DNA of 64,000 nt. Source: Pseudomonadota bacterium (lineage in GTDB: Bacteria; Pseudomonadota; Gammaproteobacteria; Steroidobacterales; JBCBZW01). Made by a program: the position numbers and the translations under genes. Below, piece after piece: positions 6,281-7,500 of this stretch. Position 1 is the first letter of the stretch; each line of letters opens with the position of its first letter. Where the stretch lies: NCBI GenBank assembly GCA_039193195.1, contig JBCCWS010000032.1:1-64000 (forward strand), given 5' to 3'. The notes beneath the pieces are model-generated. The model had not been told where the DNA came from. It searched no databases and was given only the letters and a program-made list of their open reading frames with translations.

Positions 6281-6511
6281 ATGAAAACCGACTTCCTCTT
6301 CGCTAGCCTCTTCAACCTTGGCATCAACCTACTCTTCACGATCATTGCGTTGATCATCGGCGTGACCGCGCTGATCCTGATCGACAAGAGGATCCTGAGA
6401 TCCGTCGACATCGAAGCGGAACTGAAGAAGGGCAACGTGGCCGTCGCCATATTCGCCTCTACCATCCTGATCTTCGTCGCTCTGATCGTGTCTTTCGGTT
6501 TGAAGGGCTAG
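6281..6511 (+). CDS. Small two-span membrane protein, DUF350-like
   Basis: The 76-residue protein has two hydrophobic spans (about residues 10-33 and 52-72) separated by a charged loop with LKKGNVAVAI. That GN-A-A pattern at the start of the second span is typical of DUF350, of which this would be one repeat unit; the function of the family is not established. The ATG at 6281 was chosen because everything upstream is low-complexity and it gives a clean membrane protein. The stop codon TAG is part of the CTAG target duplication of a 157-bp mobile element inserted directly behind it. Removing the element places this stop 12 bases before the next gene, so the two genes probably formed an operon. 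Confidence 0.65.
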   Translation: MKTDFLFASLFNLGINLLFTIIALIIGVTALILIDKRILRSVDIEAELKKGNVAVAIFASTILIFVALIVSFGLKG

Positions 6512-6672
6512 TGGGCCGCTTGGTAAGTAAGGTAGCGCTCAGTCTGCGTAGGGGCAGCGTCAGCAAGGCGCGTCGCGCAGCCAATGGCATCGCCATTGGC
6601 AAGCGATGCAACGCCGCGATGGCGCCCGTGCTACTCGCTGAGCGTCAACTTATTTGCCAAGCGGCCCACTAG
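6508..6672. mobile_element. 157-bp MITE (type A) with CTAG target duplication
   Basis: The element spans 6512-6668, exactly 157 bp, beginning TGGGCCGCTTGG and ending CCAAGCGGCCCA. The terminal inverted repeats match at 26 of 31 positions. CTAG stands on both sides (6508-6511 and 6669-6672), a clean target duplication. A perfect hairpin GCCAATGGC-ATC-GCCATTGGC (6580-6600) sits at the exact centre. There is no transposase, so it must have been moved in trans. TG...CA ends and CTAG targeting are known from IS481-family elements, so such a transposase is plausible. The insertion reuses the host gene's TAG stop and leaves the upstream protein intact. Confidence 0.8.
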
Positions 6673-6684
6673 GGCAGCAGGGAG

Positions 6685-7500
6685 ATGCGTACGGCGAGCG
6701 CCCTGCTGGGCGTCGTGATCGCGTTCCTATACGCGCTGGTAGAGCTGCAGACAGCGCTGGACGGCCCGCCCACCGACCAGCTGATCGAGGAAGGGCTGCA
6801 GCGCGCGAGAGCGGTTCCCCTACCGCAGCAAAATACCCTCCAGGATGGCTACGTGGAGGTGTTCGGTCAGCCCGGGCGCTTCTCCCAGGCGAGACTCCAC
6901 GAACTCACTGAGAGCCGACCCGGCAGGGATCATACCTACGCCTGGAGCTGGGGCAGCCCCGACGACGCTGTCACCACCGCTTCGGCGTTGGGGTTGGACA
7001 ATCTGCACCACTTCGTCAACTCCTACCTGGTCGGCTACCGTCCCTTCGACACTGATCAACTGTGGATTCCCCTCTACGTGTTGGCGAGCAGGAAGACCTA
7101 TGAGTTCGACCACCTGCAGTACACGGGACTCAACGACGTCTGGCAAAACTCGGCCCAGGCGTTCCTCCAAACCCGCGGCGACTGCGAAGATCACGCCATC
7201 GCCCTGGCGGACTGGCTGATCGACATGGGGGCGGATGCCTGGGTGGCGCTTGGCAGATACCAGAACGAGGGGCACGCCTGGGTGGTGGTCAATCGCGAGG
7301 GCAGTACTTACCTGTTGGAAGCGACAGGTAAGCGCCGTCTGTCACGCTGGAGCGAGTATCGCCTCGCCGCTACGCAGACGGACTATCACCCAAAGTACAT
7401 GTTCAACAGGGAGCAGTTTTGGGTAAACACCGGGAGCGAGTACACGGTCCGCTACGAAGGGGCGAGCTGGCGGCGTGCGTCGGCCTTTCATCCGCGCTGA
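6685..7500 (+). CDS. Transglutaminase-like cysteine protease-fold protein
   Basis: This 271-residue protein has an N-terminal hydrophobic segment (about residues 3-20; signal peptide or anchor) and a papain/transglutaminase-like core. The Cys motif is RGDCEDHAIAL (C167), the His motif GHAWVVV (H197), and an acidic residue follows in TYLLEAT (E212), giving the usual Cys-His-acid triad of bacterial transglutaminase-like cysteine peptidases. It probably acts outside the cytoplasm on a peptide or amide substrate that I cannot name. The start follows a CAGGGAG ribosome binding site 12 bases after the mobile element's right target duplication, so the element inserted between this gene and the preceding DUF350-like gene without damaging either. 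Confidence 0.75.
   Translation: MRTASALLGVVIAFLYALVELQTALDGPPTDQLIEEGLQRARAVPLPQQNTLQDGYVEVFGQPGRFSQARLHELTESRPGRDHTYAWSWGSPDDAVTTASALGLDNLHHFVNSYLVGYRPFDTDQLWIPLYVLASRKTYEFDHLQYTGLNDVWQNSAQAFLQTRGDCEDHAIALADWLIDMGADAWVALGRYQNEGHAWVVVNREGSTYLLEATGKRRLSRWSEYRLAATQTDYHPKYMFNREQFWVNTGSEYTVRYEGASWRRASAFHPR

Follow-up and report, generated by a model that had tools for sequence, protein, structure and literature searches.

Miniature inverted-repeat transposable elements (MITEs) that duplicate a CTAG target are already known. MITEPsy1 of Pseudomonas syringae is 100 bp long, has insertion sequence (IS) ends of the IS5 type (GGAAGGTCTGAAAAAGCC), occurs in few copies and has ISPsy2 as its probable parent (PMC3189936). 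A MITE lying in an operon, according to a review, is Chunjie of Geobacter uraniireducens (Chen et al. 2008, cited in PMC10969869). Here we describe a further CTAG-flanked member of this kind, a 157-bp element on contig JBCCWS010000032.1 of a Pseudomonadota bacterium. It lies in the 64,000-nt stretch that we analyzed (the window; coordinates are forward-strand positions in it), between a gene for a DUF350 membrane protein and a transglutaminase-like gene. Our literature search, which was of partial coverage, found no description of such a family residing on stop codons.

Insertion between two tightly spaced genes

The 157-bp insert is very probably a CTAG-specific, non-autonomous element that entered at the DUF350 stop codon after the split from the sequenced congener, leaving both proteins unchanged. 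The same-genus comparison is with one genome, congener G001. In the congener the orthologous pair is element-free and has a gap of 13 nt (GGC-TGA-GGCGGGCGGGACG-GTG). A gap of just 3 nt (TAA-CCT-ATG; L100) separates the two genes in Thalassotalea loyana. The element-free congener site and the short gap in T. loyana therefore indicate that the two genes were ancestrally close together and that the element was truly inserted between them. Among the relatives compared, none combined the absence of an element with the same spacer of about 170 bases.

Both proteins at this locus end or start where those of the relatives do. The DUF350 protein differs from its congener ortholog at 2 residues and has the same C-terminus, and the transglutaminase-like protein is 84% identical to that of the congener and 47% identical to that of T. 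loyana. The ratio of nonsynonymous to synonymous substitution rates against the congener is 0.017 for the DUF350 gene and 0.094 for the transglutaminase-like gene. These values point to purifying selection on both genes in the pairwise comparison, over a span that exceeds the time since insertion. A preliminary description of this locus had stated that two tightly spaced genes were separated without altering either protein, and the matching ends and starts, together with the empty congener site, bear this out. It had also called the pair a split operon. Spacing, direction and conservation suggest a tight pair, and the word operon is here a reading of those three features.

The junction itself reads as previously described. 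The DUF350 gene ends in GGC TAG, CTAG stands at 6508-6511 and again at 6669-6672, 157 bp lie between the two, and 12 nt with CAGGGAG precede the ATG at 6685 (Table 1). The upstream product matches PF03994 with E 9e-9 (35.9 bits, cut-off 26 bits) and the downstream product matches PF24656 with E 1e-14 (both Pfam). The two genes also form a conserved tight pair in distant bacteria (window 6281-7500; L100). PADLOC linked neither of them to a defense system.

Table 1. Features at the junction of the two genes (window positions)
Feature	Position	Strand	Basis
DUF350 membrane-protein gene, 76 amino acids, end GGC-TAG	6281..6511	+	Pfam PF03994
Left CTAG; TAG part serves as DUF350 stop codon	6508..6511		Sequence
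157-bp non-coding MITE-like element, near-perfect palindrome	6512..6668		Repeats, copies, fold, family alignment
Left terminal inverted repeat TGGGCCGCTTGGTAAGTAAGGTAGCGCTCAG	6512..6542	+	Inverted-repeat search
Right terminal inverted repeat	6638..6668	-	Inverted-repeat search
Right CTAG, second copy of target tetranucleotide	6669..6672		Sequence; single CTAG at congener empty sites L065, L076, L088, L089
12-nt remnant of old gene gap, GGCAGCAGGGAG, with Shine-Dalgarno-like CAGGGAG	6673..6684	+	Sequence; congener gap 13 nt
Transglutaminase-like / CEP76-peptidase-like gene, 271 amino acids, intact, ATG at 6685	6685..7500	+	Pfam PF24656

Anatomy and fold of the element

The 35-nt arms, CTAG included, are 86% complementary. 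The predicted fold of the element has an energy of -112.5 kcal/mol (z = -11.5), and 0 of 200 shuffled sequences were as stable. This hairpin is unchanged when the flanks are included, and the Shine-Dalgarno region, folded with the flanks, is paired in the minimum-energy structure and open in the centroid. The 157 bp hold no open reading frame of 80 amino acids or more. Rfam covariance models gave zero matches to the element up to E = 1.

The element thus has the marks of a MITE: it is short (<500 bp), carries no transposase reading frame, has terminal inverted repeats and is flanked by CTAG. It also exists in many dispersed copies and shows insertion polymorphism between relatives. The earlier assignment of the insert to the MITEs is supported by the palindrome, the CTAG flanks, the multi-copy family and the empty sites in the congener. 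We rejected a repetitive extragenic palindromic (REP) element, or a bacterial interspersed mosaic element built from such units, moved by a REP-associated tyrosine transposase. Its family, PF01797, is absent from the genome, the congener and G112, and the element is one long palindrome, not a set of 20-40-bp hairpin units.

A high-copy family and its longer form

A 20-mer from the element end (CTAGTGGGCCGCTTGGTAAA, up to 2 mismatches) matched 111 times in the genome, and the control matched 0 times. Full-length copies are scattered over the same genome with identity up to 98% (40 first-look candidates scored). Because of these dispersed, near-identical copies and the excess of end matches over the control, the element is not a chance palindrome. 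The same 20-mer has 12 matches in the congener, and a variant end, CTAGTGGGCCGCTTGATAAA, has 1-5 matches in each of five genomes from another family of the same order. Neither sequence matched in the other ~390 genomes sampled from the order. No plasmid or viral-contig relatives of the element were found.

We retrieved 41 copies with both ends, 94-263 bp in length. Most lengths group around 157, 165, 173 and 262 bp; CTAG stands on both sides in 27 of the 41. CTAG is present at 89 of 106 distinct element ends. The fold of the 262-bp form has an outer stem and two hairpins, A and B, which a short CCCGAAGGG linker separates. The length of this form does not differ between this genome (for example L078), the congener (L030, L033) and G112, which belongs to the other family (L109). 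By alignment, the 157-bp form appears to derive from the 262-bp form by deletion or recombination.

Several further CTAG-associated sequences accompany the family. Elements in G019, G021, G025 and G049 (L025-L028, L031, L032, L034, L041) have the same hairpin core with other terminal repeats, and several of them adjoin CTAG. A second, unrelated 157-bp family, also CTAG-flanked and with ends TGTCCTGAGTTAGAAGTTCGTTGATGA, is present in this genome (L077:667-831, L069:127-290, L056, L064, L067). Its copies lie near those of the first family or directly abut them, giving CTAG-element-CTAG-element arrays. At the end of contig C28 (L019), the two flanks of one copy repeat each other in inverted orientation, a fold-back assembly artifact at the palindrome.

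The elements that share the hairpin core form a possible order-wide superfamily. A wider proposal would have CTAG-bounded, two-hairpin elements with exchangeable ends moved across the order by an enzyme that favors CTAG at stop codons, a built-in safe harbor that lets them spread through operons without breaking proteins. The 262-bp form, conserved between two bacterial families, and the related cores that G019, G025, G049 and G021 combine with other ends prompt this proposal, which as a whole we regard as unlikely.

The fold bears on a different question, whether the element is retained to regulate the downstream gene. Its hairpin might insulate or attenuate that gene or stabilize the DUF350 mRNA. 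The fold is very stable with and without flanks, and at least one double compensatory change occurs in 32 of 110 predicted pairs of the 262-bp form, so that its structure is preserved across genomes. Hairpin MITEs are, moreover, known substrates of RNase III and RNase E (PMC10969869). However, paired changes also arise by template switching in palindromes, which may account for part of them in place of selection. The congener lacks the insertion, and copies stand in many unrelated contexts. A promoter effect of the element on the transglutaminase-like gene had been named as a point to check, and a search within the element gave no match to a sigma-70-like promoter or to an intrinsic terminator. 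Retention for regulation is therefore quite unlikely in our estimate.

Empty sites in the congener

Genes with an element at their end in this genome stop at the same codon in the congener at eight loci: this locus, L008, L078 (TAG), L083 (TAA), L063 (TGA), L065, L076 and L088 (CTAG). All eight orthologous congener sites are element-free. The insertions at these loci thus truncated none of the genes. A single CTAG is kept at the element-free congener sites of L065, L076, L088 and L089. The congener site of L089 continues from its CTAG into a different short palindrome (GGAAGCTCTGCATAAGTCCG...), which has IS5-like ends and is CTAG-bounded (L152:12328-12410, G001). Possibly, two unrelated elements have used one site in two species.

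According to the preliminary description, duplication of CTAG preserved the stop codon. The stop is indeed kept; as to duplication, CTAG is a palindrome, and conservative insertion of a circle that carries CTAG would leave the same sequence. In such a route the element would bring its own CTAG and join by site-specific recombination at this palindromic 4-bp core, with no staggered-cut duplication. We found no DDE transposase with matching ends, and four element-free congener sites read CTGA, GTAG, CTAC or CTTAG rather than CTAG, as this route would allow. The exactly one CTAG at the empty sites of L065, L076, L088 and L089 is predicted by both routes, however, and the classical anatomy of terminal inverted repeats plus target-site duplication favors a DDE enzyme. 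Conservative recombination seems to us distinctly improbable, and transposition into a CTAG target is the reading that we keep.

Residence on stop codons

Genes were called with a simple gene finder, for which the congener served as the training set, and 38 copies were classified after their flanks had been spliced. Of these, 16 occupied precisely a TAG stop codon within CTAG, 17 were intergenic and 5 were in called genes. The insertion at this locus is thus precisely at a stop codon, as had been noted, but it is not a special case, because 16 of 38 copies do likewise. At L090 the order is lysA-TAG, element, 11 nt, polA, and at L105, in another family of the order, it is glyA-nrdR-TAG, element, ribD (gene names at both loci are from reading translations, not from a database search). 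At L080:870-1049, convergent genes that formerly shared one CTAG for both stops are now separated by the element, each with its own TAG.

This recurrence could mean that the mobilizing enzyme has an active preference for CTAG where genes end, for instance at sites that are exposed or coupled to the termination of transcription or translation, making stop codons a targeted safe harbor. Against all CTAG sites of the window the excess is strong (16/38 vs 6/121, p 2e-7). The fair null compares stop-codon with intergenic CTAGs, because genic inserts should tend to disappear. With this null the window still gives a difference (16/33 vs 6/37, p 0.004), but the 2.4 Mb of the congener do not (16/33 vs 326/887 non-genic CTAGs, 37%, p 0.12). 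CTAG stops are common there, in 352 of 1914 genes. We discarded a first statistic, 25 of 89 ends on stops, in favor of the gene-model classification; nulls that use all CTAGs ignore selection against genic inserts. An active preference for stop codons is left open, significant against the window null and not against the congener null, and active targeting appears unlikely. CTAG specificity combined with loss of gene-breaking inserts is the simplest mechanism, and we prefer it.

Search for the mobilizing enzyme

Some observations weigh against the insertion of a transposase-dependent element at a CTAG. The congener stop at this locus is TGA, and the CTAG before insertion is not seen directly here. 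PF01609, PF13546, PF01797, PF13586 and PF05598 had no match in the genome (a 113-contig draft) or in the congener, so that five of the six transposase families searched are absent from the genome. Four rve loci, in the genome and congener, lack the ends of either CTAG-flanked family. More widely, DDE_Tnp_1, DDE_5, Y1_Tnp and DDE_Tnp_1_2 were absent from all genomes searched with them, and DUF772 matched only in G049. No transposase with matching ends was found, although some of the 113 contigs end inside palindromes and an autonomous copy could be missing from the draft. Derivation from IS5 was considered and rejected: PF01609, PF13586 and PF05598 are absent from the genome, and the ends TGGGCCGCTTGG differ from the GGAAGG of MITEPsy1.

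Discussion

We propose that a non-autonomous, CTAG-specific element of a high-copy family, probably served by a transposase acting in trans, inserted after the split from the sequenced congener. Its target, duplicated on insertion, would have been the CTAG in which the DUF350 gene ends, a final C followed by the TAG stop. The left CTAG would retain the DUF350 stop codon, and the right CTAG with the old 12-nt gap would leave the transglutaminase-like gene its start and its ribosome-binding site. The distance between the genes would thereby have grown from about 12 to 173 nt with both proteins unchanged. As far as sequence comparison goes, the family, its CTAG flanks, the empty site, the intact genes and the recurrence on other stops are seen directly. 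Purifying selection against genic inserts is probably the main reason for the many stop-codon copies.

The insertion was presumably mostly neutral. Its likeliest effect would be the loss of stop-start translational coupling, and RNase III might cut the hairpin in a joint mRNA, as hairpin MITEs elsewhere suggest (PMC10969869). Both are reasonable guesses by analogy with such elements.

Where a palindromic 4-bp target includes a stop codon, a transposon can settle in a tight gene junction while both proteins stay unchanged, and empty-site comparisons at several loci illustrate this. For operons this is a simple way to gain long hairpin spacers, and one whose instances can be counted. The two genomes, in which occupied stop-codon sites can be set beside empty ones, also make targeting versus selective survival directly testable.

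Enterobacterial repetitive intergenic consensus (ERIC) and Correia (NEMIS) elements target TA, not CTAG. They resemble the present element in being palindromic, 100-200 bp long and of high copy number, with some copies at gene 3' ends and an mRNA hairpin that can affect RNA decay (PMC10969869); unlike them, it has no Rfam match. IS5 of Escherichia coli shares the 4-bp target duplication, with copies flanked by CTAA or CTAG (PMC11677980), but it is autonomous and has different ends, and neither the genome nor its congener has the IS4/IS5-type DDE_Tnp_1 (PF01609). Chunjie is similar in having numerous copies, full and partial, whose length varies, while the review, in what it says of Chunjie, gives neither a stop-codon position nor CTAG specificity (PMC10969869). 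MITEPsy1 differs from the element described here, which is 157 or 262 bp long, ends in TGGGCCGCTTGG, has a high copy number and has no parent IS that we could find. The two are nevertheless alike in kind: MITEPsy1 is also a short, non-coding MITE with terminal repeats, and it inserts at and duplicates CTAG (or YTAA) (PMC3189936).
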